Made by a program: the position numbers and the translations under genes. A DNA stretch of 40,340 nt, from NCBI GenBank assembly GCA_005888755.1, contig VBBQ01000032.1, forward strand, positions 1-40,340, read 5' to 3'. Of this stretch, positions 14,486 to 36,810 are shown piece by piece; position 1 is the first letter of the stretch; every line of letters starts with the position of its first letter. This DNA is from Candidatus Bathyarchaeota archaeon. Lineage in GTDB: Archaea > Thermoproteota > Bathyarchaeia > 40CM-2-53-6. The notes beneath the pieces were generated by a model. That model worked only from the letters and a program-made list of their open reading frames with translations, was not told the DNA's origin and made no database searches.

Positions 14486-14521
14486 CTTACTTATTAGAGT
14501 AAGAAAACGTAATTCACGTTT
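14486..14521. terminator. two adjacent perfect inverted repeats
   Basis: CTTACT-tattag-AGTAAG (14486-14503) is followed almost at once by AAACGT-aattc-ACGTTT (14505-14521), 27 bases after the preceding stop. The pair could act as a 3'-end structure. The rest of 14460-14950 holds repeat copy A and the promoter of the next gene. Confidence 0.35.
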
Positions 14522-14617
14522 CGCCGACCAGGAAACCCGCTCCTCAACAATCACTCACGACTTCCAATATTCTGAATGAGCTTCGACTTAGATGGAGATA
14601 CGCGTTCGTTGTCAGAA

Positions 14618-14795
14618 ATCACCCATTATCAGCCCTGATCTTGGAAATGGTAGAGTCTCTTTGTTATTCCTAGAATCGTTCGAGGAGACGTGGATAAGAC
14701 CCCTAGATTTGCCTTCCCATCTAAGCCTGGATTGTGCCCTGAATCAGCTGTCTCGCCCAGAATCACTGCCGGACACGGAATCGTTCCCTGGGGGT
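14618..14795 (+). repeat. dispersed non-coding repeat, copy A
   Basis: It contains the left block around ACCCATTATCAGCCCTGATC (to 14640) and, 82 bases on, the right block AAGCCTGGATTGTGCCCTGAAT followed by TCTCGCCCAGAATCACTGCC and a GACA/GGAA tail. Both blocks recur at 25645 and, inverted, at 30548. The spacer segment AGACCCC-TAG is shared with copy C. The tail after 14795 diverges from the other copies. It lies between genes, upstream of the nucleotidyltransferase, with no supported ORF. Confidence 0.7.
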
Positions 14796-14950
14796 ATTGC
14801 ACAGCGGTTTTGCGTCGCTGGAGTGGTTCCTCCGGACCTCGTGAAGGTAACCGCCTCGTGCTAGGGGTGGCCCTTCCCAGGATTTTTGGCTTGCAGGCAA
14901 TTGAAGTCCTTATACCGGTCGGAGACCCGCCGCGAAACCGCAAGGTACCA

Positions 14951-15673
14951 ATGAAGGCGTTTGTTCTTGCCGGTGGCGCGGGCACGAGGCTCTCGCCTCT
15001 AACGAGCTATGTTCCTAAAGGAATGATACCGATAGCCGGCAAACCGTTCATCGACTACGTCATCATCTATCTCGCAGGCCATGGAATAAGAAACATCATC
15101 ATGCTGTTATCGGATGAAGACAGCGAAGTATACCGCAACCACTTGGACGATGGATCAAAGTACGGTGTCAACATCGGCTATAGCATCAGCCCACGAACCG
15201 GCACGGCAAACGCGCTGAAAGATGCGAGCAGTCTCATCGACTCGACCTTCCTCGTCTATTACGGCGACGTCCTCACAACCCTCGACCTTACAGACATGAT
15301 CCGGTTCCATAGAGAAAAGAAAGCAACCTGCACAGTCGCCCTCAGCACTGGCGTCCGAATCGACTACGGCGTAGGACGAGTCGACAAAGACGGCAGAATA
15401 GAATACTTCGAGGAAAAACCCGTCATCAAAGAATATCCTGTCTCGATAGGCGTCTGCCTCTGCGAACCCGCTGTCCTCAAATATTGCTCAAGCGGATCCG
15501 ACATCGCGGCAAACGTCATACCCACACTCGTCGCCAAAGGCGAACGAGTCTACGGCTACCTCACCCCAGAACCACACCACGACATTGGATCATTCAAGCA
15601 ATTAGACGAGGTAAAGAAGATCCTAAAGACCCAAGCCAAGAGCCAGACGAAGAACTCGTCCAAGCAAGACTAG
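14951..15673 (+). CDS. sugar-phosphate nucleotidyltransferase
   Basis: This enzyme class activates sugar 1-phosphates as NDP-sugars for glycan or cofactor synthesis. The 240-residue protein begins MKAFVLAGGAGTRLSPLT with the canonical G-G-x-G-T-R nucleotide-binding loop, followed by VPKGMIPIAGKPF and the metal-binding YYGDVLT. I chose ATG 14951 because the motif must be at the extreme N-terminus and a TATA-like ccttata lies about 40 bases upstream; the frame is open further but covers the repeat. It lacks the C-terminal left-handed beta-helix seen in GlmU or many archaeal paralogues, so it is a minimal single-domain form. Sugar specificity cannot be read. Its stop overlaps the convergent cysS stop. 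Confidence 0.9.
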   Translation: MKAFVLAGGAGTRLSPLTSYVPKGMIPIAGKPFIDYVIIYLAGHGIRNIIMLLSDEDSEVYRNHLDDGSKYGVNIGYSISPRTGTANALKDASSLIDSTFLVYYGDVLTTLDLTDMIRFHREKKATCTVALSTGVRIDYGVGRVDKDGRIEYFEEKPVIKEYPVSIGVCLCEPAVLKYCSSGSDIAANVIPTLVAKGERVYGYLTPEPHHDIGSFKQLDEVKKILKTQAKSQTKNSSKQD

Positions 15674-17085
15674 GTCATCCAGTGCGTCTGCTCAGCCGAG
15701 TCCTCTACCACAAAGCCAAGTTTAGCCATCCGATCACGGATGCGATCAGCCGAGTCATAGTCTCGCTTGCTCCGCAGCTCGTTCCTCAGCTCCAGGACAA
15801 AGTTCACCAGCTCCGAAACCCGGTCCTGCGCGACAGTCTCAGTCTCTAGGACACCTAAAACAGAGCCAAGATCTTCCAAAGCGCTAATTATCGCGTTTAC
15901 CGACTCGGTTTTTGGATTCCTCGCCTCTTCCTCTGCCAACCCGACCATTCTGATGTAAGCAGCCAGCGCTCCCGGAGTGTTGAAATCATCGTCCATAGCC
16001 TTGAAGAACTCGTCCCGCGCCTCGTCAAGCTGGTTGAGAACCGAGTTCGCCTCCCCCTTCTTACCGGTCATCCTGTCTCGAGCCAGCGCAAGCTGGTCGT
16101 GCGCTCGCCTGAACCTTCTGGCAAGGCTGACTGCTTGCTGCAACGCCTCCTCGGTAAAGTCCAACGGACTCCTGTAATGTGTCCCAGCGTAGAACACCCG
16201 CAGACCTGGAGCACCAACTTTCCTGACCATGTCTCGGATCGGGATAAAATTGCCCAGCGATTTGTGCATCTCCTGTCCCTTGATGCTCATCAATCCGGTG
16301 TGAAGCCAGTAACGCGCCAATGGCTTCTTCCCAGTCAAACCCTCCGTTTGCGCAATCTCTGCTTCATGATGCGGGAAGATGAGATCCGAACCACCGCCAT
16401 GCACATCATACCTTGGCCCAAAGTACGTTAGAGTAATCGCGGTGTCCTCGATATGCCAGCCAGGTCGTCCTTTGCCCCACGGACTCTCCCAGAATATCTC
16501 GCCAGGCTTCTGGCTCTTCCACAAGGCGAAGTCTCCAGGATGTTTCTTCCGGGGATCGGGATCAACCCGGTGAACCGTAAGATCCTCCAGCTTTTGATGA
16601 GACAGTTTTCCGTAGCCTGGAAACTTGGAAATGTCGAAATAGACGTCATCATCAACCCTGTAAGCGATTCCCTTCTTTAGAAGTCCAGTGACCTGATCGA
16701 TGATCTCGGGAATATGATCCGAAGCCTTCGCGTAAAGATTAACACTGTCCACGTGGAGTTCTTTCATGTCCTTGAAGAAAGCTTTCGCCAAGCGATCCGC
16801 TAGAACCAGCGGCTGTTCCCCTAGATCGTGAGCCTTGTTGATGATCTTATCGTCGATATCAGTAATGTTGAGGAGGAAGAAGACACTGAAACCCTTCCTC
16901 CGCAAATAGCGTGCGATGATATCATAGGCGACGTAGGTCTTTCCGTGGCCAATGTGAGAGACATCCCAGACCGTCGGACCGCAGACGAACATGTTCACCC
17001 GTTTTGGCCGGATGGGCTCGAACTTGTCGAGCTTCCGCGTCAGCGTATTGTGGACTCGAAGCTCAGAGGAAGTCGGATCTATCAG
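15670..17085 (-). CDS. cysS: cysteinyl-tRNA synthetase
   Basis: This class I synthetase charges tRNA-Cys. The product is about 471 residues: NTLTRK, the zinc-site Cys in MFVCGPTVWDVSHIGHGKT with the HIGH-type motif, NITDIDDKII, GRPGWHIEDTAI, the zinc His/Glu region FPHHEAEIAQ and a KMSKS variant MHKSLGN. The second zinc ligand, Cys in bacterial enzymes (HIEC), is Asp here; I believe archaeal CysRS often have this. The C-terminal domain is a helical anticodon binder. No ATG/GTG/TTG is available just before ELRVHNT; CTG 17085 (or ATA 17082) is the best start. The longer frame to 17412 overlaps the Nudix gene and looks non-coding. Confidence 0.93.
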   Translation of the reverse strand: MIDPTSSELRVHNTLTRKLDKFEPIRPKRVNMFVCGPTVWDVSHIGHGKTYVAYDIIARYLRRKGFSVFFLLNITDIDDKIINKAHDLGEQPLVLADRLAKAFFKDMKELHVDSVNLYAKASDHIPEIIDQVTGLLKKGIAYRVDDDVYFDISKFPGYGKLSHQKLEDLTVHRVDPDPRKKHPGDFALWKSQKPGEIFWESPWGKGRPGWHIEDTAITLTYFGPRYDVHGGGSDLIFPHHEAEIAQTEGLTGKKPLARYWLHTGLMSIKGQEMHKSLGNFIPIRDMVRKVGAPGLRVFYAGTHYRSPLDFTEEALQQAVSLARRFRRAHDQLALARDRMTGKKGEANSVLNQLDEARDEFFKAMDDDFNTPGALAAYIRMVGLAEEEARNPKTESVNAIISALEDLGSVLGVLETETVAQDRVSELVNFVLELRNELRSKRDYDSADRIRDRMAKLGFVVEDSAEQTHWMT

Positions 17086-17137
17086 CGCAGAGTCCCCACG
17101 GTCACCTCGGTCACCGCATCGACCTCTATAACTGACT

Positions 17138-17635
17138 CTAACCGGTTGGAAGCTTGCTCTGACCCGGCTTTGCCTCCGAGGAATGACCCTTCTCGGACTG
17201 GATATTGCTCCAGGCTTTCGAGAGCATCTCCTTCTCATTAGGATACGACAAGGTATGGAGAGCCTTTTCGTACGGCATCCACTCCATCGCATCGTGCTCG
17301 GTCCCCACCTTCGCGTCAGCCTGATCAGTCTCGAACAGGAAGAAGTGAACAGTCTTGTCGTAGGTCTTCGCACGGAACCCGAACTGGTACTTGATCGCGC
17401 CAAGCTTCCCATGCAGCTTCACCCTGCTTACACCGGTCTCTTCACGTACCTCCCTCATAGCCGTCGTGACCTCGTCTTCGCCCTCTTCGATCAACCCCTT
17501 CGGCAAACACCAGACCCCTCTCTTATTACTGGCCAGCAGCAGAAAAAGCGGGTTATCCTTCTCCCAGCGATAGACAACTCCACCAGCTGATATAACCCGG
17601 ATCCTCTGTCTGGGCTGCATCCCGCCCCCGTACAT
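17138..17635 (-). CDS. Nudix hydrolase
   Basis: Nudix enzymes hydrolyse nucleoside diphosphates linked to another moiety. The 165-residue protein has a full Nudix box at about 47-69 (GLIEEGEDEV..AMREVREETGV), including the REVREE metal-binding core. The SAGGVVYRW start and FLFETDQ strand resemble the diadenosine-tetraphosphatase/MutT-like branch. Substrate is not predictable. The last 25 residues (KGHSSEAKPGQSKLPTG) look disordered. Start is ATG 17635, or ATG 17620 (MQPRQRIRV), which is closer to the domain; a TATA-like aattatag is at about 17655-17662. It precedes cysS on the same strand. Confidence 0.9.
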   Translation of the reverse strand: MYGGGMQPRQRIRVISAGGVVYRWEKDNPLFLLLASNKRGVWCLPKGLIEEGEDEVTTAMREVREETGVSRVKLHGKLGAIKYQFGFRAKTYDKTVHFFLFETDQADAKVGTEHDAMEWMPYEKALHTLSYPNEKEMLSKAWSNIQSEKGHSSEAKPGQSKLPTG

Positions 17636-17657
17636 GACTATACTCTACGCTCTGCGA

Positions 17658-18866
17658 CTATAATTCGATATCTTTCGACAAAGGCGTGATGTTTTCCGAG
17701 GGAGAACCAACAACCACAATATCTTCTATCCTGACACCGCCCCACTTAGGCTCGTAGAGGCCTGGTTCAATCGTTGCCACGGACCCTTTTCTAAGGTGAT
17801 CCTTGCCGTATAGTGAAAGGTAGGGTCTCTCTCCAATAGTCAATCCGACCCCGTGACCGAGCCCGTGCACGAACCCACGAGTCCGCGCTTCCTTATTCCC
17901 CTTCATCAGCTGCCGCGCAGTTGGGTACCCTTTCCTCTCGAAGATCTCGCACGCGTTCGCCATCATTTCTTTGCAGGGGACCTGCTCCTTCACCATATCC
18001 AGCGCCGAAGTTTGAACTTCCAGAACGGCATCATACATTTCCTTGACCTTCCTAGGCGCGGAACCGAACAAATAGGTCCGAGTCAAATCATGCCAGTAAC
18101 CATCTGGTTCAGAAGGAAATATGTCAAAGACAATAGGCTCACCGGATCGGACAATATCCTCGTCTTCGCCCCTGTAGTGAGGGTCGCTGGACTTCCTTCC
18201 CGGCGCGAATATCGTATCCTCCGGCGCGACCAAGTTCTGCTCAGAAAGCGACCTTCCAATAACCTTCTTGACCGTTCCGACACTCAACGGTTTTGACTTG
18301 TAAGACACTCTCCTCCCGTTGATACTTGCTCCTCTTAGAAACCGGAGTGTGTCTTCCACCACTCGTATCGTTTTCTTCCCGAGAACTCTCAGCCGTTCGA
18401 TCTCCCAACGATCCTTTGTTTCACGGGCAGTTTCGATGATCGTAGGCGACTTTTCCCCAGTGATCTTCACGCCCTTACGTCGGAGGGCGTCTATCATGTG
18501 GAGTGTATTGGACACATCATTCCTACCCGCGAGAATCGTAGGACCGTGAAGTCCCTCTTCCTTCATGATCTTCCGGTAGAATCGGATCCGGGCCTCATCC
18601 CGGTCGTATTTACTCGCGATGCGCTCGTACCCATAGTCCGAGTAAGTCTTGATGTTGCGAACCGTCCCCTGGCGCGCGCTGCCCACGTCGATATTGCTCA
18701 CTATGAGCGTCGGGTCATGTGATCTTCGTTTCAGAAATATTCCGCCTCTTGGAAGAGACGTTCCCGCAACGTATCGAAGATCCGGGTTTCCCACCGTTGA
18801 GTCTCCGAAGACTATTATTGAATCGACATTTCCCTTTTCCATCTCCACGTCGAGATCTTTGATCAA
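17658..18866 (-). CDS. M24-family metallopeptidase (Xaa-Pro aminopeptidase-like)
   Basis: It probably removes N-terminal residues preceding proline in the cytoplasm. The 402-residue protein has an N-terminal creatinase-like domain (about 1-150) and the pita-bread catalytic domain. The five metal ligands can be seen: Asp in IVFDIFP, Asp in HDLTRTYLF, His in FVHGLGHGVGL, Glu in TIEPGLY and Glu in VRIEDIVVV. The start is TTG 18866. It lies upstream of the Nudix gene on the same strand with a short gap. Substrate preference is inferred only from family. Confidence 0.92.
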   Translation of the reverse strand: MIKDLDVEMEKGNVDSIIVFGDSTVGNPDLRYVAGTSLPRGGIFLKRRSHDPTLIVSNIDVGSARQGTVRNIKTYSDYGYERIASKYDRDEARIRFYRKIMKEEGLHGPTILAGRNDVSNTLHMIDALRRKGVKITGEKSPTIIETARETKDRWEIERLRVLGKKTIRVVEDTLRFLRGASINGRRVSYKSKPLSVGTVKKVIGRSLSEQNLVAPEDTIFAPGRKSSDPHYRGEDEDIVRSGEPIVFDIFPSEPDGYWHDLTRTYLFGSAPRKVKEMYDAVLEVQTSALDMVKEQVPCKEMMANACEIFERKGYPTARQLMKGNKEARTRGFVHGLGHGVGLTIGERPYLSLYGKDHLRKGSVATIEPGLYEPKWGGVRIEDIVVVGSPSENITPLSKDIEL

Positions 18867-18956
18867 GAAGATGCCTTGGTAACAGGAGGCGAGAACGGTA
18901 TATTATGATTGGGAGCGGTCAGTTGCGACGAACAGTTCGATAGACTGTTGGAAGAA

Positions 18957-19229
18957 CTAGTTCTTTCTGGCGGCAACTAGAGGCTTCTGAAGGGACGTGC
19001 GAAAGAGTCTTTTCTGGGTAGACCTGCGATGACGACTCTCCAGCTCACTCTTCAACCGTCTTTCCTCCGCTCCGTGCAACCAGTCAGGGATAAGAAGAAC
19101 CCGGATCAGTTCCTGTACAGTTACTCCCCTCTGAATCGCGAGCTGCTTGAGCCTTAGGTAGACGGCTCGGTCGAGGACCTGCATGAACTTGACAGAGTCT
19201 TTGGTGCCCCGAGTTCTCGATACTGGCAT
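18957..19229 (-). CDS. small ribbon-helix-helix-like protein
   Basis: This is a 90-residue, strongly basic protein with an ATG start. The segment KFMQVLDRAVYLRLKQLA then IQRGVTVQELIRVLLIPDWL fits a short strand plus two helices of the ribbon-helix-helix (CopG/Arc) fold. The C-terminal 40 residues are rich in Arg, Lys and Ser. That suggests DNA binding, perhaps as a dimeric regulator of the divergent alcohol dehydrogenase. Family assignment is by pattern only. Confidence 0.6.
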   Translation of the reverse strand: MPVSRTRGTKDSVKFMQVLDRAVYLRLKQLAIQRGVTVQELIRVLLIPDWLHGAEERRLKSELESRHRRSTQKRLFRTSLQKPLVAARKN

Positions 19230-19360
19230 GAAAACAAAGGGAGTCCACTACTATTCATGGCTCATCTACTCTTCTTATAGAATAAACTCTAAACGAAAAC
19301 ACGTTTCAAACTTGGTCCCCGGAAATCCGTTAAATTGGACGACAAAGATAGGAGCTGTTC

Positions 19361-20389
19361 ATGCTTGCCTGTCTAATCAACGGACCCGGACACGTCGAGA
19401 TTACAGAAGTTCCGATTCCGAGACTCCGGCATGGCGAAGTCTTGATCAAACTCGCGGCAGCCGGAATATGCGGAACTGACATCGAAAAGGCCCACGGCGC
19501 ATATGGACCCGGCGGAATCCTGGGCCACGAGGTCAGCGGGACGATTGCGAGCGTAGGTGATGGAGTGACCGATCTGAGAAAATCGGACAGGGTCATCGCA
19601 CACCATCACGTGCCTTGCTACAATTGCGAATACTGCCGACATGCAGACTACACTATGTGTGATCTCTTCAAGAAGACAAACTTCGATCCTTGCGGACTTG
19701 CAGAGTACTTCCGAGTCCCCGAGGCCAATGTCACTCGAGGAGCCGTTGTGAATTTGACTCCCGAGACAAGCTTCGAGGAAGGATCTATGATAGAACCGAC
19801 AGCGTGTTGCGTGAGAGCCCTCGACAAGGCTAGAGTGAACCCTGGAGACAAAGTTCTCGTCGTAGGCCTTGGCCCAGCTGGCCTGACACAAACACAATTA
19901 CTCAGGAAAATGGGCGCTACAACGATAATCGGCGTCGATATTCTCCCCCGTCGACTCGAAATGGCCCAGAAGCTAGGGGCCCACGAGACAATTGATTCTT
20001 CCTCGAAAAATGTACCTGAACAAGTTACGAAGTCGATTGGAGTTGGTGTTGATCTTGCAATCGTATCCACGGGGAATCAGAAAGCAATACAGCCAGCGCT
20101 TGCTTCGGTCAGAAAGGGAGGAAAACTCCTATTATTTGGCGCCCCCGCTCAAGGCTCAACAATTGATCTCGATGTCAGTGCTTTGTTCAGCCGGCAGATC
20201 TCGATCGTTACGAGCTATTCCTGTGTAGAATCGGATATTCATCGTGCTCTCGGATTTCTGGCGCGAGGAGACCTGGACCTTCGGTCCATGGTTACCGACA
20301 GGTTTGCGTTACGAGATGCTCCCAAAGCGCTTGAGCACGCTCGAACCTCGAGAACCGCTATCAAGACGATGATAATGTCCCAAGCGTAG
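19361..20389 (+). CDS. zinc-dependent medium-chain alcohol/polyol dehydrogenase
   Basis: The 342-residue protein is an NAD(P)-dependent MDR enzyme of the sorbitol/threonine-dehydrogenase type. Catalytic zinc residues appear as Cys37 (GICGTD) and His56-Glu57 (GHE). The structural zinc is complete as Cys86, Cys89, Cys92 and Cys100 (CYNCEYCRHADYTMC). The Rossmann motif is VVGLGPAGL, followed by VDILPRRLEMA, where the Asp after the second strand suggests NAD rather than NADP. Substrate cannot be fixed. AT-rich elements at about 19271-19280 and 19328-19335 are promoter candidates; the divergent neighbour is the ribbon-helix-helix-like gene. Confidence 0.93.
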   Translation: MLACLINGPGHVEITEVPIPRLRHGEVLIKLAAAGICGTDIEKAHGAYGPGGILGHEVSGTIASVGDGVTDLRKSDRVIAHHHVPCYNCEYCRHADYTMCDLFKKTNFDPCGLAEYFRVPEANVTRGAVVNLTPETSFEEGSMIEPTACCVRALDKARVNPGDKVLVVGLGPAGLTQTQLLRKMGATTIIGVDILPRRLEMAQKLGAHETIDSSSKNVPEQVTKSIGVGVDLAIVSTGNQKAIQPALASVRKGGKLLLFGAPAQGSTIDLDVSALFSRQISIVTSYSCVESDIHRALGFLARGDLDLRSMVTDRFALRDAPKALEHARTSRTAIKTMIMSQA

Positions 20390-20553
20390 TCGGATTCGTG
20401 GAGTTACCCGAAATTGACACTTGATGAAGGTGAAAGTGCGGTCTTTGAGGACGTGTCCCGTCGTGTTAAAGGAGAGGTCTGACCTGCTAGTTTTTCCACG
20501 CTTCATTCGAGGCGAATCTGACAACGCAATTTCAGTTTGACCAAAAGGTAGAC

Positions 20554-20832
20554 TTGGCGATAAGCAAGTCTGTGAAGGGTACGCTCAGGTTCTACAACGA
20601 GCTTAGAAAGCAAGCGGTTGCTCGAGGCGAGGCGGCGAAGCCTCCCAGCTACGAGACGTTCTCGACAATGGCAAAAGGCCTCATGGATGCAAACAGACAG
20701 GTCGACCTCGACAGATTGAAGAACCTGAGCATGAGAGACCTCTTCGAGCGCACCTGGGCTCAGAAGCTTCTCAACTACTCAACGCAGAGACTTCTGAGAG
20801 AGGCCCATGAGACCTTGGTTCGGAGATATTAG
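20554..20832 (+). CDS. hypothetical protein
   Basis: This is a 92-residue TTG-start ORF predicted to be almost all helical and basic (GTLRFYNELRKQAVARGE; LMDANRQVDLDRLKNLSMRD; QRLLREAHETLVRRY). It has no cysteine and no membrane segment. I do not recognise a family. The stretches on either side (20390-20553 and 20833-21113) show no convincing gene. Confidence 0.55.
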   Translation: MAISKSVKGTLRFYNELRKQAVARGEAAKPPSYETFSTMAKGLMDANRQVDLDRLKNLSMRDLFERTWAQKLLNYSTQRLLREAHETLVRRY

Positions 20833-21113
20833 GAGCACGCTCGACTACCTATGGTTTGTGAGCGCCCGACGAGGCAACCGTTCTCTAAGATTCCTCTCAA
20901 GGGTCATGGAAACTATCGAGGAGGTTTCGGACTCTAACGCATGTTCTCGTCCCAGAAACGAACAGAGTAGTTGAACAAGCTCTCTTCCAGGCGCTTTCAG
21001 CTGAAAGAATCCATATTCTCGCTTCTTTCCGCTGCCTTCCCTCGTGGGTATCTCCGCGTTCTGCGTGAGTTTCAAATACTACCACGCTCCAGTGCACGCT
21101 CAGCTGAATAGAA

Positions 21114-21257
21114 ATGCCACAAGCATACTGCGTCAAATGTAAAGCAAACATCGAGATAAAGAACCCCCAGAACGTCACGCTCAAGAACGGAAAGGCTGCG
21201 GTCAAGGGCACTTGCCCAAACTGCGGAACCTCCGTCTTCCGAATCGGAAAAGGGTAG
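21114..21257 (+). CDS. DUF5679 zinc-ribbon protein
   Basis: This is a 47-residue gene. It begins MPQAYCVKCKANIEIKNP and ends GTCPNCGTSVFRIGKG, with two CxxC knuckles binding one zinc. This small ribbon is widespread in archaea and bacteria (DUF5679), and its role is unknown; a nucleic-acid or ribosome-associated role is often supposed. A TATA-like aaatact lies about 40 bases upstream. Its high Lys content fits nucleic-acid binding. Confidence 0.9.
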   Translation: MPQAYCVKCKANIEIKNPQNVTLKNGKAAVKGTCPNCGTSVFRIGKG

Positions 21258-21350
21258 AGCGCCTCCTTCCAGTAAACCCATCAACCTTCGCCCGGTTGCA
21301 GGCTAACCCTGCGAACCTTTTAACCCCCAACCTCTTTATTTAGGCAGGTA

Positions 21351-23081
21351 TTGAAGGCAAAGAGCGCGACTATTGTTTTCCTTATTTTATCGGTCGCGGT
21401 TACCTATTGGTTCCCCCTATCGTGGGCCGATGGTACCCCCGCAGCGGTACCTCGATACTCCTATCTCATAGGAAGCAACGCGACAAGTACCGCTGGCCTC
21501 TCCTTCCAGTTTCCGTCGGGGAGTAACACCGTGACAAAGGACCTCACAAATTCCTCTTCAGTTTTCACGATGCAAAACCAGCTCTTTGATTCAATAACCG
21601 TCGCAGGCCCGATTGTGTTCTCTCTATGGCTCTCTTCTAACACGACAACGACAACGATGGTAACCCTTGGTCTAACTTTGGCCGGAGGTTTCAATGTCAC
21701 CACGGGAGAGATTCAGGAGGATGTTACTATGATCGCTTCTAATCACACCATCACATATACACCGTCCGTCACCACATTGCTTTTCGGGTCTCAAGTCAAA
21801 TTCTCGATTTGGGCAAATCCCCCAAAAGGCACTAAAGTGACTCTTCACTGGGGTTCGCAAACGAGACACTCGTCAGTTCTCATTCCACTCTCAGGATACG
21901 CCTTCGTGAACAATGTTGCAATCCTCGACAAACTGCTACGACCCGCTCCGAACTTTGATCTTCAGGCTTCAACAGGAAATAACGTAGTATTGATTCAAGC
22001 ATCAGTGGTAGCAGCTTTCGGTTCAGCCGATATACAAAGGGTAAACCTGACAATAGTTGGGCCAAACCGGGTGCCGGTCTACAACCAATCGAGAAACGGG
22101 AATGAAGCGTTTCCCCTCACTCAATTCCCGCCTTTCAGTTATAACTTTCAGTGGGCCTATCCGTCGAACGCTACCGAAGGGGTTTATCAGGTTAACATTG
22201 ATCTGATCGACTCTCAAGGCCATTTAGCCTCCAGGTTCGGAGGCTCTTCATCTTTTGGTCTATTCAAAGGAGGCACTCCGCCTTTCAATTTCCTACCATA
22301 TGCCGCGATAGGCGGAGTGGCCGTCGTCGGTGGGGCCTTGTATTATGGAACTAAGAGGAGGACGAAGAGGTATCTCGCACCGTTCGAACACTTCAACAGC
22401 CTCACCGGGGGCGAGTTTAACGGCGGCACGATTACGGTTGAGGGTAATACCGGATCAGGTAAGACTCTGTTGTCCGAACAACTGATGTACGAGGACCTTA
22501 GGAGAGGAAGACCTTGCATCTTTGTAGCTACTAGCGACTTTCCAACCAACATCCGATCAAATATGAAAGCCATGGGACTTGATGTCACGGGTTACGAGCA
22601 GAGTGGATTGTTGAGCTTTGTGGATGCATACTCATCGGAAGCCGGGCAGGAGTCAAGAGAGAAATTCTCCACCCCTTCTTTGGGGGACTTGACTACCCTT
22701 GGGATGAAGATCACGTCGTCGCTACCCTTGGACAAGGCCAAGGGAGCTAGCCTCTACCTGGATTCCCTGGTTCCTCTTGCGTCCAAGGCGAAGGCTGAGA
22801 GTATCATATCTTTCGTGCAATCTGTCGGGGCTAGAATGCGTGGAATGGGCGGCAGAGCAGTTTTCACCTTGGGGCCCAGCGTGGACGGAATGGTTCAGCG
22901 ACAACTTGAAGACTTGGCCGACTGTGTTGTTCAGATGGAAGCTTTTGAAGAGCGTGGAGTTCGTCGTCGACGTCTCAGAATTGCTAAGTTCAGAGCGAGG
23001 AGGCATCAGGAAGGTTGGAATGTCTTCGCTATAGAGGATGGAAAGGGAATCATCTTCTATTCTAAGAAGCCTAAGACTTAG
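21351..23081 (+). CDS. membrane-anchored KaiC/RecA-like ATPase with secreted domain
   Basis: The 576-residue protein has a signal-like start (ATIVFLILSVAVTYWF, ending near residue 27). About 285 extracytoplasmic residues rich in Ser, Thr, Asn and Val follow, probably beta-sandwich domains with many N-x-S/T sites. One membrane helix is at about 313-335, with a following GTKRRTKR stop-transfer. The C-terminal 230 residues are a RecA/KaiC-like ATPase: Walker A EGNTGSGKT at 364-372, then FVATSDFPTNIRSN and Walker B-like ASLYLDSLV near 467. Topology places the ATPase inside and the sandwich outside. It looks like a surface receptor coupled to a KaiC/FlaH-like switch. It starts with TTG; cttttaac at about 21316 may be the TATA box. 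It converges with another KaiC-like gene. Confidence 0.85.
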   Translation: MKAKSATIVFLILSVAVTYWFPLSWADGTPAAVPRYSYLIGSNATSTAGLSFQFPSGSNTVTKDLTNSSSVFTMQNQLFDSITVAGPIVFSLWLSSNTTTTTMVTLGLTLAGGFNVTTGEIQEDVTMIASNHTITYTPSVTTLLFGSQVKFSIWANPPKGTKVTLHWGSQTRHSSVLIPLSGYAFVNNVAILDKLLRPAPNFDLQASTGNNVVLIQASVVAAFGSADIQRVNLTIVGPNRVPVYNQSRNGNEAFPLTQFPPFSYNFQWAYPSNATEGVYQVNIDLIDSQGHLASRFGGSSSFGLFKGGTPPFNFLPYAAIGGVAVVGGALYYGTKRRTKRYLAPFEHFNSLTGGEFNGGTITVEGNTGSGKTLLSEQLMYEDLRRGRPCIFVATSDFPTNIRSNMKAMGLDVTGYEQSGLLSFVDAYSSEAGQESREKFSTPSLGDLTTLGMKITSSLPLDKAKGASLYLDSLVPLASKAKAESIISFVQSVGARMRGMGGRAVFTLGPSVDGMVQRQLEDLADCVVQMEAFEERGVRRRRLRIAKFRARRHQEGWNVFAIEDGKGIIFYSKKPKT

Positions 23082-23830
23082 AATACTTTGTCGCGTGGGA
23101 AAACCTCGATTCCCGCGGCTCCAAACTGATAGGGACGAATCTGCGTGTCATGAGCAATTCCGCGCATTTTTTCGACTTGTACTGCTCGGACAAAGTTTCC
23201 TTGATGCATGAGTGTATGAAGAACAACTACTCCATGTGAAAGAAACTCTTCAATTTGAAATCTTCGGTCCAAGAGCGATGTCTTCAACTCGCTTGTTACC
23301 AGAGAAGTGCAACCGGTGTCCGATAGTGCATCAAAGAATTCTACAGTTGCCCTTCGTCTCTTCACCTCCTCCCCGTACCTCAACATAACTGATGTGATAG
23401 GGTCGAGAGCGATCCGCTCGACATTCTCGCCTTCAACCAGTTTTGTGAGAGTTTTCAAGACCTCGGTGAAGCCAACCCCTTCAGAGGAGTCGGAGGAAAA
23501 TAGCGCGTGAGGTCCATTGTTCTTGATCCTAGTCCTACGCAAACCGCTGGCGTCTAAGAACAAGAGTCGGCCCTTTTTCTCGACGCTATCAAGGTCCCAA
23601 TTGTACGATTGGAAGTTTTGTTTTATCACATCCGGATATTCATCGAGGGTAACGTAGAGTCCGGTTTCGCCCTGGAGCGCCCCGCTGTAGAGATACTGGA
23701 TGGCGAAAGTCGTCTTTCCAGAACCAGGGCTCCCAACTACTAGAATGCATTTTCCCTCAGGGAAGCCTCCCCCGAGAAGCTCGTCGAGGCCTTTGATCCC
23801 TGTGGGAACTCTATCCAACACAATCGTCAA
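23078..23830 (-). CDS. KaiC-like (RecA superfamily) ATPase, single domain
   Basis: This 250-residue protein begins VPTGIKGLDELLGGGFPEG, the usual KaiC/RadA lead-in, with Walker A GSPGSGKT at about 33-40, YVTLDEYPDVIKQN after it and Walker B-like RIALDPITSVML. One KaiC domain is present, so it is not the clock KaiC. It is of the archaeal type often found in signalling and motility. Its stop overlaps the stop of the convergent membrane-anchored ATPase by four bases. A TATA-like tttttatac at 23848-23857 suggests transcription begins at or next to TTG 23830, a leaderless mRNA. Confidence 0.92.
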   Translation of the reverse strand: MTIVLDRVPTGIKGLDELLGGGFPEGKCILVVGSPGSGKTTFAIQYLYSGALQGETGLYVTLDEYPDVIKQNFQSYNWDLDSVEKKGRLLFLDASGLRRTRIKNNGPHALFSSDSSEGVGFTEVLKTLTKLVEGENVERIALDPITSVMLRYGEEVKRRRATVEFFDALSDTGCTSLVTSELKTSLLDRRFQIEEFLSHGVVVLHTLMHQGNFVRAVQVEKMRGIAHDTQIRPYQFGAAGIEVFPRDKVF

Positions 23831-23847
23831 TTAGACTGGTTATCAGC

Positions 23848-23857
23848 GTATAAAAAT
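23848..23857 (-). promoter_or_regulatory. TATA box of the KaiC-like gene
   Basis: On the minus strand tttttatac lies about 22-27 bases before TTG 23830, the spacing for a leaderless transcript. This supports TTG as the true start. Confidence 0.6.
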
Positions 23858-23875
23858 AGTATTTCGAGATTAGCC

Positions 23876-24751
23876 CTAGACTTCTCGGAATTTTCCAGGT
23901 GGATTTTCGAGCCATATCTTCGAGGAAACGACTCTAGAACTCACCTTCTCGGTTAGCACTATGCGTGCTATGTGTCGATTTGCAGGGTCAGCTGCGAGGT
24001 TGCAGCCGAGCGCGAAGCACCAGCACACGCCGATCAGGAGGAGGAAGATGTAAGCCAGGGTACTGAAGATTGGCCGAGTAAGGGCAGTGTAGAGCAGCGA
24101 GAAGCCGCCCGATGCACCAATCACCGTAGATAGAAGCGTCGTATGAAAGGGGCCAACATCGATGCTCCGAAGCCTCAATCCTCCGAAGTATGGAAGGGAA
24201 AGAGCAACCAAGGGGAGCATTAGCGATGCGGTCATTGTGAGTGTCACAAAATCCTGCGTAATCAGGCTCACTATGTCGGTTGTCCGGGCTAGAGGCGAGA
24301 TCAACGGGATGTCCTTGTGATTTGCTTCGTAGGTTGCGAAAGGCACTACAACCGCGAGAATGAACCCGAAGTACATGACCTGTCTCCGAAGTTTCAGTTT
24401 CAAACCTCGAGAAGCTTGGACCGCCGAGAGTTCTGAGGTCTTGGAACCGATTACGTGAATTCCCTTCGTGATGAAGAGATAGAGCTTAATCGTCTTCGTT
24501 GATATGACACCCCCGAAGAAGTACATGTACGTGAACCCTATTGGGATGCCAATGAGAGGGATTACGAGAGTCAACGTCGCGCTCAACGCTAATGTGAGGA
24601 GTCCTACCTGCGCATTTCTTGGCAGTATTCTATTCGCTGACGCGAGGATGGGAAGAACTGTAGATGATCCGATGAAAAAGAGAACGAAAGTGGCAACAAA
24701 GCAGACGAGTAAGTTTCGTCGGTTGTGTGAGCTTCCAGTGCCGCTTGACAA
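23876..24751 (-). CDS. polytopic membrane protein of unknown function
   Basis: The 291-residue protein has six to seven hydrophobic helices: LVCFVATFVLFFIGSSTVL, then two closely spaced segments to YMYFFGG, then MYFGFILAVVVPF, a long one around LMLPLVALSLPYF, and STVIGASGGFSLLY and IFLLLIGVCWCFALGC. A charged cytoplasmic loop (RGLKLKLRRQ) lies between the third and fourth. The start is TTG 24751. There are no catalytic motifs I can name. It lies upstream of the KaiC-like gene on the same strand, so a link with the neighbouring ATPase pair is possible but unproven. Confidence 0.75.
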   Translation of the reverse strand: MSSGTGSSHNRRNLLVCFVATFVLFFIGSSTVLPILASANRILPRNAQVGLLTLALSATLTLVIPLIGIPIGFTYMYFFGGVISTKTIKLYLFITKGIHVIGSKTSELSAVQASRGLKLKLRRQVMYFGFILAVVVPFATYEANHKDIPLISPLARTTDIVSLITQDFVTLTMTASLMLPLVALSLPYFGGLRLRSIDVGPFHTTLLSTVIGASGGFSLLYTALTRPIFSTLAYIFLLLIGVCWCFALGCNLAADPANRHIARIVLTEKVSSRVVSSKIWLENPPGKFREV

Positions 24752-24840
24752 TGTTGCCCGAGTTGAGAATCCGGTTATTGGACAATATTTAGGAAGGCTG
24801 GTTCTCTAGTCCCATCTGGCTAGTTAATGGAGAGATTCCC

Positions 24841-25617
24841 TTGCCTGAAGAAATGGATCTCATTCTGAAGATCGTTAGGACGTATCGTCCGACCGGCCGT
24901 GTGTCGATCCGACGGATAGGCAGCTTCGTCAATGATGTATTCCTCGTTAAAGTGGACAACGAGAAACTTGTGGCCAAAAGGTACACGAACTGGGTGTCTC
25001 TCAAATGGGTGACGTTGAGTCTCTTCGGCCTAGGTTCGGTTCACTTCTCGATATCCGGGAAGAGACGGATGGAGGCCGAGTATGCTTTCAACGACCTATT
25101 GTCACATCGCGGTATACCAGTGCCCTCCATTCTGGGAGCTGACCAGAAATCCAGAACAATACTGTTCTCATTCGTTTCAGGCGACCAATTATCGAGTCTA
25201 CTTCCCAGATTGGTGGGGGTTGCTCAAATGGGACAGAGGGAGCGCGAGGCAGCTTACCAAGCTGGAAAACTGATGGCGGGCGCGCACCAGCTAGAAGCTG
25301 CGCTAGGCGATACGAAGCCGGAGAACTTTCTCGTAGAGAAGAAGGGCGAGGTGACACTCGTTGATCTCGAACAAGCCCGCCATCGAGGGGATTATGCTTG
25401 GGACCTGGCAGAGTTCCTATTCTATTCAGGTCATTACTGGTTCTCGTTCAACAAGACCCTGGAGGCATACGTTGATTCCTTCATCAAAGGCTACAAGGAG
25501 CAAGGAAGCCCGAGCACGGTTAGAGCTGCTGCCTCTCCCCGATACGTTAGAGTCTTCTCCGTATGGACTCCCCCGAATATCCTGCATAACATGAGAAAGA
25601 AACTCACCGAGATCTAA
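24841..25617 (+). CDS. protein kinase-like (APH/RIO/KdkA-type) protein
   Basis: This is a 258-residue protein of the kinase-like superfamily. It has an N-lobe lysine candidate in KLVAKRY and a Glu candidate in RRMEAEYAFNDLL. The catalytic loop reads GDTKPENFLV, in which the usual His is Gly but Asp, Lys and Asn remain. The metal-binding DFG is DLE (TLVDLEQARH), as in RIO or LPS-kinase-like enzymes. WDLAEFLFYSG follows as in aminoglycoside-phosphotransferase-type folds. It could phosphorylate a small molecule, a lipid or a protein; nothing in the sequence decides. The start is TTG 24841. Repeat copy B begins about 30 bases after the stop. Confidence 0.8.
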   Translation: MPEEMDLILKIVRTYRPTGRVSIRRIGSFVNDVFLVKVDNEKLVAKRYTNWVSLKWVTLSLFGLGSVHFSISGKRRMEAEYAFNDLLSHRGIPVPSILGADQKSRTILFSFVSGDQLSSLLPRLVGVAQMGQREREAAYQAGKLMAGAHQLEAALGDTKPENFLVEKKGEVTLVDLEQARHRGDYAWDLAEFLFYSGHYWFSFNKTLEAYVDSFIKGYKEQGSPSTVRAAASPRYVRVFSVWTPPNILHNMRKKLTEI

Positions 25618-25644
25618 TGGGCACCGTGATTTCGTAGCCCGCAA

Positions 25645-25845
25645 TATCGCCCATTATCAGCCCTGATTCGTGATTTGAACAGTCACGTCTAGTACATGCG
25701 CTATTTCGTGCTGTAAACCGGGATAATTCCCGATCGACATAAGCCCGGATTGTGCTTTAATCGCTGTGTTTCGCCCATTCTCACTGCCAAACGGGAAATG
25801 GTCCAGGGAAAATAGGGGGTCTTAGCGACCGACCCTCGCGCCGCA
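25645..25845 (+). repeat. dispersed non-coding repeat, copy B
   Basis: The left block is ATCGCCCATTATCAGCCCTG (25646-25665). After a 73-base spacer the right block AAGCCCGGATTGTGCTTTAA (25741) leads into TTCGCCCATTCTCACTGCC. The tail GAAATGGTCCAGGGAAAATA, then TTAGCGACCGACCCTCG, is shared with copy C. It fills the 285-base gap between the kinase-like gene and the convergent thermosome gene. No ORF is supported. Confidence 0.75.
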
Positions 25846-25902
25846 TTAGTGCTTACGCGGGGATGTTCGGATCGGAAATCGAACGGGGACAGAAGGGTCG
25901 TT

Positions 25903-27552
25903 CTAGAACTCTTCATCGCCGCCGGGCGGTTTGAAGTCCTTTCCGCCGCCGGCACCCTTGTCGACTCCTTTGGACGCGATGACGTCATCGATTCTTAGAA
26001 TCATCGACGCGGCTTCGGAGGCTGATTTGATCACTTGTTGCTTAACCCGTAGTGGTTCGAGAACGTTCAGCTTTCGCATATCCTTCACATCGCCCGTGAA
26101 CACATCGATTCCGAACCATGGACTTCCTGCACGTTCATGCTTTGAGCGTAGCGCTACGAGAACATCGATGGGGTCGAATCCAGCATTCTCAGCCAGGGTC
26201 GTTGGCACGGCTTCGAGTGATTCCGCGAATGCTTCGATCGCCAGCTGTTCTCTCCCGCCCACCTTCACGGCGTATTCCCGGAGTCTCTTGGCGAGTTCCG
26301 CCTCAGGCGCGCCGCCTCCGGCAACAATCTTGCCATCTTCTAATGCGTTTCTTACGACGCACAGCGCGTCATGCAGGGACCTGTCAGCTTCGTCGACAAC
26401 ATGTTCCGTTCCACCGCGAATGACTATCGTTACGGCCTTCGGGTTTTTGGCGTCTCGAACGTAGATGAGCTTGTCATCGCCTATCTTTACCTCCTCTATC
26501 GACTTTGCCTCGCCCAACGCGTCTTTCGCGAGGTCCTTGACGCTAGCAACGACTCTGGCGCCGGTTGCCTTCGACAGCTTCTCAAGATCACCGCTGCTTA
26601 CGTTCTTGACGGCGCCAATTCCTTTCTTGGCCAGATAGTGTAGCGCAACGTCGTCTATCCCTTTCTCGCTGAACACGATATTCGCACCAGTCTTCTCGAT
26701 CTGAGAGACCATGTCGACCAACATCTTCTCTTCCTCCTCGATGAACAGGTGCATCTGGTCAGGATTGTTGATGTTGATCTTCGCGTCGAACTCTGTCTTC
26801 TCTACCTCGATCTTGGCGTTGAGGAGAGCGATCCTTGCGCCTGTTATCGTCTTCGGCATTTGAGCGTGGGCAAGCTCCTTGTCAATGACAATGCCCTTGA
26901 CGAGTTCTGTCTCTTCCAAACTCTTCCCGTGTTTTTTCAAGATCTTTATCAGATCAATATCTGCCTTGATCTCACCGTTAACCTTCTCAGCAATCTGCTT
27001 GACAGCCTTCACCGAGATATCTGCAAAGTGCTCCTTCGCGACAGCGATGCCCTTGCTATACATCGACGTTGTCGCAACCTGTCGCAGAATCACATCATCC
27101 TTCTCGGATATAGGAATCGATAACTTGTCAAGGATCTCAATCGCCTTCTCCGCAGCCATCTTGTAACCATCAACAATCACAGTCGGATGGACATCCTTGT
27201 CCAACAGCTTCTCAGCCTTCTCAAGGAGTTCACCAGACAACAATACAGCAGTTGTAGTACCGTCGCCAACCTCGTTATCCTGGGTCTTGGACACTTCAAC
27301 AAGCATTTTCGCGGCTGGATGCTGAACGTCAAGCTCTTTCATTATAGTGGCGCCATCGTTCGTAATCGTCACGTCGCCGATACTGCTTACTAGCATCTTG
27401 TCCATTCCTCGAGGACCGAGGGTGGAGCGCACCGTTTCCGCTACGACCTTCGCAGCAGTAATGTTATTCCTCTGAGCTTCCTTACCAGTTGATCGTCCAG
27501 TACCTTCCTTTAGGATAAGTACAGGCACTCCTTGGGTTCCTTGAGCAGACAT
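25903..27552 (-). CDS. thermosome subunit (group II chaperonin)
   Basis: This is an ATP-dependent protein-folding ring subunit, 549 residues from ATG 27552 ([17 protein letters not shown]), the usual archaeal length. Visible blocks are [42 protein letters not shown] (the ATPase Asp), the helical-protrusion region, and [15 protein letters not shown]. The tail ends [15 protein letters not shown] instead of a pure GGM repeat. The frame continues upstream to 27663 but that part is unlikely to be translated. A TATA-like cttaagaaat at about 27600-27610 on this strand fits a short leader. Confidence 0.97.
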
Positions 27553-27804
27553 TCTTTCATACCTTACTGAATTGGAATTCGAAAGCAAAGGAGAGCGGGA
27601 TTTCTTAAGGTTTACCCGCTTTGTGATCGAAGCCGAGGATTGTCCGACTCGGAATCGATACATAGGCTATCGGAAAGGAGCTCATTGTTCCAAAGTTTGC
27701 TGCGAAAGAGAGCCCTTTCCAGGGCAGTGCCTATTCTCTAGGACTTGAAAGGTTCAAGACGAGTACCACTTTCTTCTTTCAAGGGGCCAGCTTGAAGCTA
27801 CCTT

Positions 27805-28236
27805 ATGGCTTCATCGCAGAACCCGATGGCGTACTTGCTCGAAAACGGCCTTCGGAGAGTCGAAAGCGAGAGGCCTGAGCTCGTGAATGACTCAAGGTAT
27901 CAGGAGCTGAAGGAGCAACTGCTCCGAGATGCCGAGGGCCATTTCCGGGAGATACAAGCTACGTATGCGACCATTTTGAAGACGCAGTGTCATTGCGGGG
28001 GCCAATTGGAGCCGGTGGACCATGACTTCGGTAAGTCAGGAGGAACCATCTACGATAGCGTCATAGCCAAGTGCAAGTCCTGCGGCGAGGCGCAGGCTTT
28101 TCAGTTTCCCAAGGAAGGATTCATCTCAGAGGCTCGGTCTGCCATGGAGCTGAGAGACTATCTTCAAGCTACATACGCGATCGACTATGCAGGCGCAGTC
28201 AGAAGCGATCTTCAGAGTCGCGCAGTAAGGCACTAG
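27805..28236 (+). CDS. hypothetical protein with a Cys-pair zinc motif
   Basis: The 143-residue ATG-start protein has a helical N-terminal half (PELVNDSRYQELKEQLLRD) and a central ribbon formed by CHCGGQLEPVD and CKSCGEAQAF, which together supply four or five Cys for one zinc. A helical C-terminus follows (AMELRDYLQATYAIDYAGA). I do not recognise a family. It converges with the next conserved gene, with 14 bases between stops. Confidence 0.65.
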   Translation: MASSQNPMAYLLENGLRRVESERPELVNDSRYQELKEQLLRDAEGHFREIQATYATILKTQCHCGGQLEPVDHDFGKSGGTIYDSVIAKCKSCGEAQAFQFPKEGFISEARSAMELRDYLQATYAIDYAGAVRSDLQSRAVRH

Positions 28237-28250
28237 GGCCCTTAGCATAT

Positions 28251-28814
28251 CTACGTGCCAACGGTTTTCTCGTACATTTTCCGGAAGGTCCATCGGACAG
28301 CGTTCTTTATCTCGCTAAGACGAGTCTCGTCTCCATAATTTTTGACGCGCAACTGTTTCAGAAGATTGCCCTGCTGATCAAGGTCAAAAGACAATACTCG
28401 ATCGGGGGGTAATCCGCCCTTTCGGACGGCTTCCTCGTCTTTCTTCTGCATCGGCTCAAGCACCTTTCCCAAGAGGAACGGCCGGAACGGTGGAGTGTTG
28501 GTGTCGAATTTCATTCCTTCACCTGGCACGACGCGGAGGTTCGGGCCGTCAACGTGCATGTCCGCTAAAACCACTCCGCTGATCGTTCTGATGCTCTGCG
28601 GAGGAACCTCCTGTTTCTTCGTGTCCTCCGCGAGAGTTTTCGGAACCTCAACTCTTCGATAGCTTCGTTCAGTGAGTAGGAGATCAATTACTTCGAGGAA
28701 TGATCTCAGGGTTCTGATCTCTTCCTCATCTTCTAGAACTTTCTTCTCGAGGTAAGCCTTCAGCTCGGCAAGCTTCTTTGTCGACCGTTCTCTCAGCTCT
28801 GACATAATCGTCAC
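28251..28814 (-). CDS. conserved archaeal protein of unknown function
   Basis: The 187-residue protein has an N-terminal coiled coil (LAELKAYLEKKVLEDEEEIR) followed by a domain with VVLADMHVDGPNLRVVPG, NTPPFRPFLLGKVLEPM and KNYGDETRLSEIKNAVRWTF. I believe a similar protein is conserved in Nitrososphaeria, from memory of the TPPF..FLL..IL and NYRD..RLNEI patterns, but it has no established function. The start is GTG 28814 (leaderless by TATA spacing) or ATG 28805. It diverges from asnS through a very short shared promoter. Confidence 0.7.
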   Translation of the reverse strand: MTIMSELRERSTKKLAELKAYLEKKVLEDEEEIRTLRSFLEVIDLLLTERSYRRVEVPKTLAEDTKKQEVPPQSIRTISGVVLADMHVDGPNLRVVPGEGMKFDTNTPPFRPFLLGKVLEPMQKKDEEAVRKGGLPPDRVLSFDLDQQGNLLKQLRVKNYGDETRLSEIKNAVRWTFRKMYEKTVGT

Positions 28815-28834
28815 ATGGTTGGTCGTATTGGGAT

Positions 28835-28844
28835 TCTTAAATAA
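28835..28844. promoter_or_regulatory. AT-rich box shared by divergent genes
   Basis: cttaaataat is the only AT-rich element in the 72 bases between the conserved gene (minus) and asnS (plus). Read left it is about 25 bases from GTG 28814; read right it is about 45 bases from ATG 28887. One TATA-like element may therefore serve both directions. Confidence 0.4.
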
Positions 28845-28886
28845 TCCGAGGGGCAGTCAAGCGTTGAGTTTTGCGGGGGTATAGGA

Positions 28887-30191
28887 ATGAAGCAAATCGC
28901 CACGGTAAGAGAGGTTCTGCGGGGAACCCTCGACTCACAGCAGGTTCACGTCCGTGGATGGTTACAGAACAAGCGCACTGGCGGTGGAATAATTTTCCTC
29001 CTGTTGCGCGATGGCTCAGGGGTCGTTCAATGTACATTGCGAAAGGGGAAGGTTGATGAGAAGATTTTCGAAGAGTTCCAGTCCGCTCGGATAGAATCGA
29101 GCGTTGAGCTGAAGGGCGAAGTCAGGCCTGATCCCCGAGCGCCTAGTGGGAGAGAGATTCAGGTGGTTGACGGGCTCGTCGTGCATCCTGCTCTTGAAGA
29201 GTTTCCAATCGCGAAGCAGTTCCATGGTCCCGAGTTCCTCTTGGACAACAGGCACCTATTCGTCCGGAGCGACAAGATGCGCTCGATCCTCAGAGTTCGC
29301 GGGGTCGTTCTCTCAGCAGTCCGGGAATGGTTTGACAAGCACAGTTTCACAGAGGTTCAGGTTCCAACTCTCACTTCTGCCGCTGTGGAAGGCGGCGCGA
29401 CCCTGTTCGAGGTGAAATATTTCGATCAAAAAGCGTACTTGACACAGAGCTGGCAGTTGTATGCTGAGGCTTTGATCGCGAGCATAGGCAGCATCTACAC
29501 TGTTGCTCCATCCTTCAGAGCGGAGAAATCTCGGACCAGGAGGCACTTGACAGAGTACTGGCACGTTGAGGCTGAGGCGCCCTGGTGTGACCTGAATTGT
29601 ATAATCGAAGTAGAGGAGCGATTGTTGAGCCACATCGTGGCCGAGCTCGTGGAAAAGTGCAAGACCGAACTAGCACTCTTCGAGAGGAACCCAGAGGAAT
29701 TGGAAAAAGTGAAACCGCCTTTTGAGAGAGTAACATACGACCAGGCGTTCAAGATGATCGGAGAAGAAAAATCGGGAATAAAATGGGGCGACGATCTCGG
29801 ATACGAGCAGGAGAAAATCTTGACCGCGAAGTTTGATCGGCCTTTCTTCGTCACTCATTATCCCAAAAAAGCGAAGGCGTTCTATCACATGCCTGATCCC
29901 TCTAATCCAGAGGTGACCTTGTCTGTAGACTGTTTGGCTCCTGAAGGCTACGGGGAGATTACAGGTGGTGGACAGAGAATTGAGGAGTATGATGCATTGC
30001 TGGCGAGGATCCGCGAAGAAGGACTAGACCCGAAAAGCTACGAATGGTACTTGGACCTGCGGAAGTTCGGCAGCGTTACCCATTCAGGTTTTGGACTTGG
30101 TCTGGAACGGGTTGTCTCTTGGGTCTGCAAACTCGACCACATACGAGACGCAATAGCGTTTCCTCGGCTTATCAACCGAATCTACCCATAA
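28887..30191 (+). CDS. asnS: asparaginyl-tRNA synthetase
   Basis: This class II synthetase charges tRNA-Asn, the tRNA encoded at 97-241. The 434-residue length is typical of archaeal AsnRS. The N-terminal OB-fold (VHVRGWLQNKRTGGGIIFLL) binds the anticodon. The catalytic core shows motif 2 FRAEKSRTRRHLTEYWHVEAE and motif 3 GFGLGLERVVSWV. HLTEYWHVEAE and the GEITGGGQRIEEYD block point to AsnRS rather than AspRS or the AsnRS-like asparagine synthetase, although the Asx branch is hard to split by eye. Start is ATG 28887. Confidence 0.93.
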   Translation: MKQIATVREVLRGTLDSQQVHVRGWLQNKRTGGGIIFLLLRDGSGVVQCTLRKGKVDEKIFEEFQSARIESSVELKGEVRPDPRAPSGREIQVVDGLVVHPALEEFPIAKQFHGPEFLLDNRHLFVRSDKMRSILRVRGVVLSAVREWFDKHSFTEVQVPTLTSAAVEGGATLFEVKYFDQKAYLTQSWQLYAEALIASIGSIYTVAPSFRAEKSRTRRHLTEYWHVEAEAPWCDLNCIIEVEERLLSHIVAELVEKCKTELALFERNPEELEKVKPPFERVTYDQAFKMIGEEKSGIKWGDDLGYEQEKILTAKFDRPFFVTHYPKKAKAFYHMPDPSNPEVTLSVDCLAPEGYGEITGGGQRIEEYDALLARIREEGLDPKSYEWYLDLRKFGSVTHSGFGLGLERVVSWVCKLDHIRDAIAFPRLINRIYP

Positions 30192-30337
30192 AGACAAGAG
30201 CGTCTCGCCCGAGTCGCGTGTCTCACCACAGCCTACGACCTGCAAGGGCTCAAATCGTCCATAGATGAAGGTCCGCCGAAATGCTATCCTGTCGTGACCT
30301 GATTACTTTCGAAGGGGTCCGAGGTAAGAACTCATGC

Positions 30338-30548
30338 GACCCCCGAGGGTCAGTCGCTAATATCCCCTATTTCCAGAAACCATTTCCTGTCTGATAGTGA
30401 TATTGGGCGAGACAGGTTATTCAGGGCACGGTCTGGGCTTCGGTGAGATAGCGAAACTAGGGGGTCTACCGCCCTTTTGGGAACGTTTTGCCGAGTAGCA
30501 TCGGGGCGACCTCCCAGATTCGGGATCAGGGCTGATTATGGGCGATTC
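30338..30548 (-). repeat. dispersed non-coding repeat, copy C
   Basis: It is inverted relative to copies A and B. On the minus strand it reads ATCGCCCATAATCAGCCCTG, an 83-base spacer, AAGCCCAGACCGTGCCCTGA with TCTCGCCCAATATCACTATC, then GGAAATGGTTTCTGGAAATA and TTAGCGACTGACCCTCG, ending in a short GACCC/GGGTC hairpin. The left block overlaps the last codons and TAA stop of the hydroxyacid dehydrogenase gene. It occupies most of the 344-base gap after asnS; the remainder (30192-30337) shows nothing I can name. Confidence 0.75.
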
Positions 30549-36806: not shown

Positions 36807-36810
36807 CCAT

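Follow-up and report, generated by a model that had tools for sequence, protein, structure and literature searches.

Bacterial repeats of the BOX and ERIC type are modular, intergenic sequences whose units occur in tandem and fall into classes of different internal length. REPINs are short, non-autonomous extragenic repeats that require, and are mobilised by, RAYT transposases (Y1_Tnp, PF01797), and their motifs are palindromic and inverted, at spacings of 71 or 110 bp (PMC3116915). Prokaryotic MITEs have been reviewed, with archaeal examples in Sulfolobus, Haloquadratum and others (PMC10969869). We found no literature on the mobile repeats of uncultured Bathyarchaeota-type archaea, which seem almost undescribed. 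Here we analysed a 40,340-nucleotide stretch of DNA (the window), which is contig C28 within a 2.01 Mb soil Bathyarchaeota-type archaeal MAG (G000) and whose gene content includes a thermosome subunit. The window holds three copies of a repeat that is probably a non-autonomous mobile DNA element of the REPIN/MITE-like kind, limited to one family of these soil archaea.

Like REPINs, the archaeal element has a variable spacer flanked by a pair of conserved motifs, occurs in clusters and has no autonomous copy, and the doublet appears to be the replicating unit. Unlike those of REPINs, its motifs are repeated directly, at steps of a helical turn, and do not form inverted hairpin pairs, and its consensus folds are weak. 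Y1_Tnp (RAYT/IS200; PF01797) was matched in 0 of the 21 genomes of the archaeal family, with positive control matches in 5 of 14 genomes, and identity with the REPIN/RAYT system was dropped because this family is absent. With MITEs the element shares small size, high copy number, non-coding sequence, intergenic location and presence/absence variation; it differs from them in that neither clear terminal inverted repeats nor a target-site duplication (the flanks being diverged) nor a parent transposon was found. BOX and ERIC-type repeats are comparable in their modularity, but their sequences and host domain are different, and the cores here are direct repeats at helical-phase spacing. The element works like REPINs and MITEs, yet the inverted motifs and the RAYT of REPINs were not found. 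Integron attC sites, with conserved ends and a variable middle, were set aside on general grounds, the copies being dispersed singly or in pairs; CRISPR-like variable spacers were set aside since bodies are inherited at 85–95% identity at many orthologous sites.

The original prediction had described three dispersed copies, each with a left block carrying the palindrome ATCAG-CC-CTGAT, a core TCGCCCA-NN-ATCA doubled in a right block (with a CACCCA variant in copy A), and a tail TTAGCGAC...CCTCG common to copies B and C. All of these features were recovered, and profile matches place the copies where they had been predicted (Table 1). The right block is offset from the left core by 73 bases in B and by about 84 in A and C. 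The predicted size of about 200 nt holds for the core unit (about 215 nt) and falls short for the full unit, which tandem periods and one empty site suggest to be about 245–257 nt. Within the window, the core pattern gave 12 matches with at most 2 mismatches, against a shuffle mean of 3.96, and 0 of 100 shuffles reached 12.

Table 1. Positions of the three copies and their parts in the window
Feature	Positions	Strand	Description
Copy A, whole core unit	14616..14825	+	long class, core spacing 134; profile R1 match, E 1.4e-33
Copy A left core	14619..14639	+	TCACCCATTATCAGCCCTGAT
Copy A middle block	14723..14742	+	AAGCCTGGATTGTGCCCTGA; right core starts 30 nt on
Copy A right core	14753..14776	+	TCGCCCAGAATCACTGCCGGACAC
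Copy A right end	14809..14823	+	degenerate, TTTGCGTCGCTGGAG; consensus CTCGCG(A/T)CGCA(A/T)GAG
Copy B, whole core unit	25644..25850	+	short class, core spacing 124; profile R1 match, E 3.5e-36
Copy B left core	25647..25667	+	TCGCCCATTATCAGCCCTGAT
Copy B middle block	25741..25760	+	
Copy B right core	25771..25794	+	TCGCCCATTCTCACTGCCAAACGG
Copy B right end	25835..25849	+	CTCGCGCCGCATTAG
Copy C, whole core unit	30331..30548	-	long class, core spacing 135; profile R1 match, E 1.1e-39
Copy C left core	30525..30545	-	TCGCCCATAATCAGCCCTGAT
Copy C right core	30387..30410	-	TCGCCCAATATCACTATCAGACAG
Copy C right end	30331..30347	-	CTCGGGGGTCGCATGAG

In the unit, which is about 215–250 nt long, the left core is followed by a nearly random body, the middle block, the right core and the right end, in that order. 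The right core repeats the left-core motif as a direct repeat, and each core consists of TCGCCCA plus a lineage-specific half; in the dialect of the window genome the left core is TCGCCCATTATCAGCCCTGAT and the right core is TCGCCCANNATCANNGCCAGACAG. The middle block (AAGCCCGGATTGTGCCCTGA) is positioned exactly 30 nt upstream of the right core in 129 of the 135 copies measured, and the right end, for which Table 1 gives the consensus, follows the right core at a looser distance, mostly 59–71. Inspection of the aligned copies showed no inverted similarity between the unit ends, apart from 5 bp (CGAAA/TTTCG) in genus g2. Mean body identity between copies is 0.63, compared with 0.595 for shuffled bodies, and is alike within and between spacing classes. 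The predicted selection on the paired blocks, and not on the spacer, is borne out.

A search profile (R1) built from 72 copies matched about 71 copies in the window genome and 59 in the genome of a sister species (G013); the search for further copies had been set beforehand as a refuting test, and the outcome of no more copies is not what was found. Left cores alone numbered 42 in the window genome, against 0 for a reversed control pattern. R1 matches were present in 18 of 18 genomes of the genus and in 2 of the 3 other genera of the family (in G018 and G019, not in G020), so that 20 of 21 genomes of this one archaeal family carry the element, and were absent from all 17 genomes from other families of the order. 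Named genomes with exact left-core matches were solely soil Bathyarchaeota and 'Crenarchaeota' MAGs. A phage, plasmid or virus origin was dropped, as viral contigs, plasmids and phages gave no match to the element. Nor was a longer autonomous version found among the sampled loci, where left core and right end are almost always about 180–220 nt apart; a search for far right ends as a sign of an autonomous parent gave just tandem pairs or degenerate right ends.

The distance between the two cores is sharply quantised. Across 235 copies it clusters at 124, 135 or 145 bp, with no copies at 128–131 or 139–144, and these modes were not imposed by the search, as the right core was sought over a wide range (90–185). 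In the window-genome dialect the distribution is bimodal (122–127, n=71, mean 124.3, sd 0.95; 132–138, n=78, mean 134.9, sd 1.1), and the gap of 10.6 bp between the modes fits the helical phasing of B-DNA. In the second dialect 50 of 52 copies lie at 132–136, with single copies at 123 and 145, and the spacing is 132–137 in genus g3 (n=21) and 145–146 in genus g2 (n=13). Because the distance changes in helical turns, the paired blocks behave like DNA sites contacted by a protein, and this supports the predicted protein-binding element on a new ground. The classes do not represent two recent clones, since 65 body clusters at 75% identity are spread over both (26 all-short, 32 all-long). Of near neighbours in body sequence (at least 85% identity), 82 of 84 fall in the same spacing class, as do 45 of 60 at 75–85% identity, so the class has switched repeatedly.

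Core sequence differs between lineages, the clades of the genus being delimited by the element itself. Both cores read TCGCCCA-TTATCA in the window-genome clade, TCGCCCA-GAACA in the second clade (G001, 4, 5, 9, 10, 14, 16) and TCGCTCA-TTTTGA in genus g2; in genus g3 the left core (GAAYAA) and the right core (TTCTCC) are mutually unlike. In three of the four dialects the two cores have changed in parallel, which suggests that a single trans-acting factor may read both of them. The g2 copies are nearly uniform, which suggests recent spread. In most g2 (G018) copies (L404–L432) a strongly AT-rich box with an AT content of 0.86–0.93, e.g. CTTTAAGAAAATTA, lies upstream of the left core at -42 to -31; the bases between box and core are variable while the distance is fixed. 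This box could represent a promoter or an insertion-site preference, and none was found upstream of the left core in the other dialects. A hairpin-like motif (TTACTTATTAGAGTAAGAAAACGTAAT) at window 14488–14510 is kept at the same site in other species and was seen at 12 distinct places among the loci fetched, some of them shortly upstream of second-dialect elements.

Comparison of orthologous sites, in genomes that are draft MAGs throughout, indicates that positions persist while their contents turn over. Tandem pairs being merged, 50 sites were listed in the window genome, and for 32 of them both flanks are present in G013 and enclose an element; one of these had an implausibly long matched interval, and 31 were taken further. 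About half of the 31 contain an unrelated body despite flanks that are 86–96% identical, and all loci fetched together give 43 independent orthologous pairs, of which 29 have a replaced body. The G013 counterpart of the B site, for instance, holds a body 91% like that of copy C. A full, shortened or variant element occupies the C site in every resolved species; in G013 the element there has an internal deletion across CCCT, which leaves the left core joined to the right end. Copy C is lost or truncated in G013 and G006, and copy A in G013, G015, G002 and G011. In G004 and G014 the B site is a 57–60 nt intergenic region without the element, and in G010, where the site is partly unresolved, the element is apparently also missing. 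Site e30 is empty in two relatives (G013 and G006), the net insert measuring about 257 nt, with flanks too diverged for a clean junction or target-site duplication to be read. A MITE-like element, which the original prediction had offered as its alternative, is in keeping with a multicopy family with empty sites, though clear inverted ends and a parent transposon were not found.

Half-units and changes from one to two units are frequent. Tandem pairs have a period of 232–252 nt, and the bodies of the partners are 0.61 identical, a random level. At e12, e16 and e34 the sister genome holds a single chimera of both tandem units, a contraction. The order is long then short in 18 of 25 tandem pairs (Fisher p = 0.001), some of which are orthologous; several tandem and orthologous pairs have loci in common, so their independence is incomplete. 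A 135-class unit thus usually precedes one of the 124 class, and the tail of the first unit (TGGTTGA.GGGAAA) differs from that of single copies.

The site at which constraint acts was approached through 14 independent orthologous pairs with kept bodies, where cores are 7.8% diverged and bodies 9.4% (p = 0.22), the core figure being biased low because copies were picked by core match; flank divergence in these pairs is 9.5–10.2%. An early sample of 10 orthologous pairs had cores and bodies changing at equal rates. The left core and the right end taken alone are each 5.2% diverged, below the body, which hints, in a sample confounded by ascertainment, that these two parts change more slowly and may be under weak in-place selection. 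Since cores drift about as fast as kept bodies, the pattern is best explained by constraint that acts as units propagate, as in a mobile element, and not at each site. A putative recombinase or transposase encoded elsewhere would make contact with the two cores along a single face of the helix and would move or copy the unit, so that only units with intact, in-phase cores would propagate and resident copies would afterwards drift neutrally. Incoming units may settle beside resident ones, and recombination between tandem units would then remove one of them to leave a chimera; bodies would turn over in this way while sites stay fixed.

We weighed this mobile reading against explanations that assign the units a function in the host. 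Nucleoid, segregation or regulatory proteins might bind the in-phase cores at sites kept by selection, a proposal that would account for the helical phasing, for sites common to several species and for the avoidance of predicted genes; we regard it as unlikely, as cores in kept-body pairs are not clearly slower than bodies, copies A, B and C are freely lost or truncated in relatives, and half-units and unit-number changes are common. A family of structured non-coding RNA genes, which the original prediction had entertained, is improbable. The AT-rich box in most g2 copies, which is TATA-like, speaks for it, as do second-dialect fold energies modestly below those of shuffles (-70.6 vs -64.4), but the other dialects have no such box, consensus folds in the window-genome dialect are very weak, at about -2 to -4 kcal/mol on the plus strand with values as low as -12 for the minus strand, and mean energies in g2 and g3 equal those of shuffles. 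Pairing in the right-end hairpin is no better than in shuffled columns, Rfam gave no match to the element at gathering or relaxed thresholds, and a one-sided length step of 11 nt would not keep an RNA hairpin intact. The structured RNA was dropped after these analyses, in which consensus folding covered both strands by class and dialect with shuffled controls. A terminator or other 3'-end role, predicted from the genes preceding copies B and C, was likewise dropped. All copies are outside predicted genes, which a simple codon-usage script had called; among the 99 copies with a called gene on either side, 36 are between convergent, 22 between divergent and 41 between co-directional genes, with 52 following a same-strand gene; these counts give no sign of a terminator or of a 3'-end preference.

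Processes other than transposition could also contribute to the patterns. Ectopic gene conversion alone could underlie site sharing and body swapping, which weighs against mobility, as does the g3 dialect with its unlike left and right cores. On another view, the copies would be inert remnants of an old element that was once mobile, made uniform by gene conversion only, with spacing classes descended from two ancestral masters. Fixed sites with swapped bodies and the chimeras are compatible with such debris, but spacing is sharp despite random-level bodies, there are three modes, including an independent one at 145 in another genus, spacing switches at moderate body divergence, and the near-uniform g2 copies suggest recent spread; this account is improbable. 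The mobile reading could be extended, tentatively, to a new archaeal mobile-repeat system, in which a putative machine unrelated to RAYT/IS200 would read direct-repeat cores in helical phase, co-evolve with the core sequence in each lineage and, at fixed sites, rebuild units by way of tandem dimers in a set order, long first and short second. Helical-turn spacing combined with a random body would offer a direct way into the geometry of the complex that mobilises the unit. A further prediction, drawn from the dialects, is that a single trans-acting DNA-binding protein shifted its specificity between lineages, and its gene should therefore be findable by comparative genomics.

Other features of the window were observed alongside the repeats. 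A 154-nt direct repeat (7915–8068 and 9279–9432, 70% identical and 1364 nt apart) is located inside adjacent genes that resemble paralogues, and a gene for a CdvA-like coiled-coil protein of archaeal cell division is found at 13375–13995. A fused cytochrome oxidase COX1-COX3 gene at 36796–39231 suggests aerobic respiration in this Bathyarchaeota-type soil archaeon.
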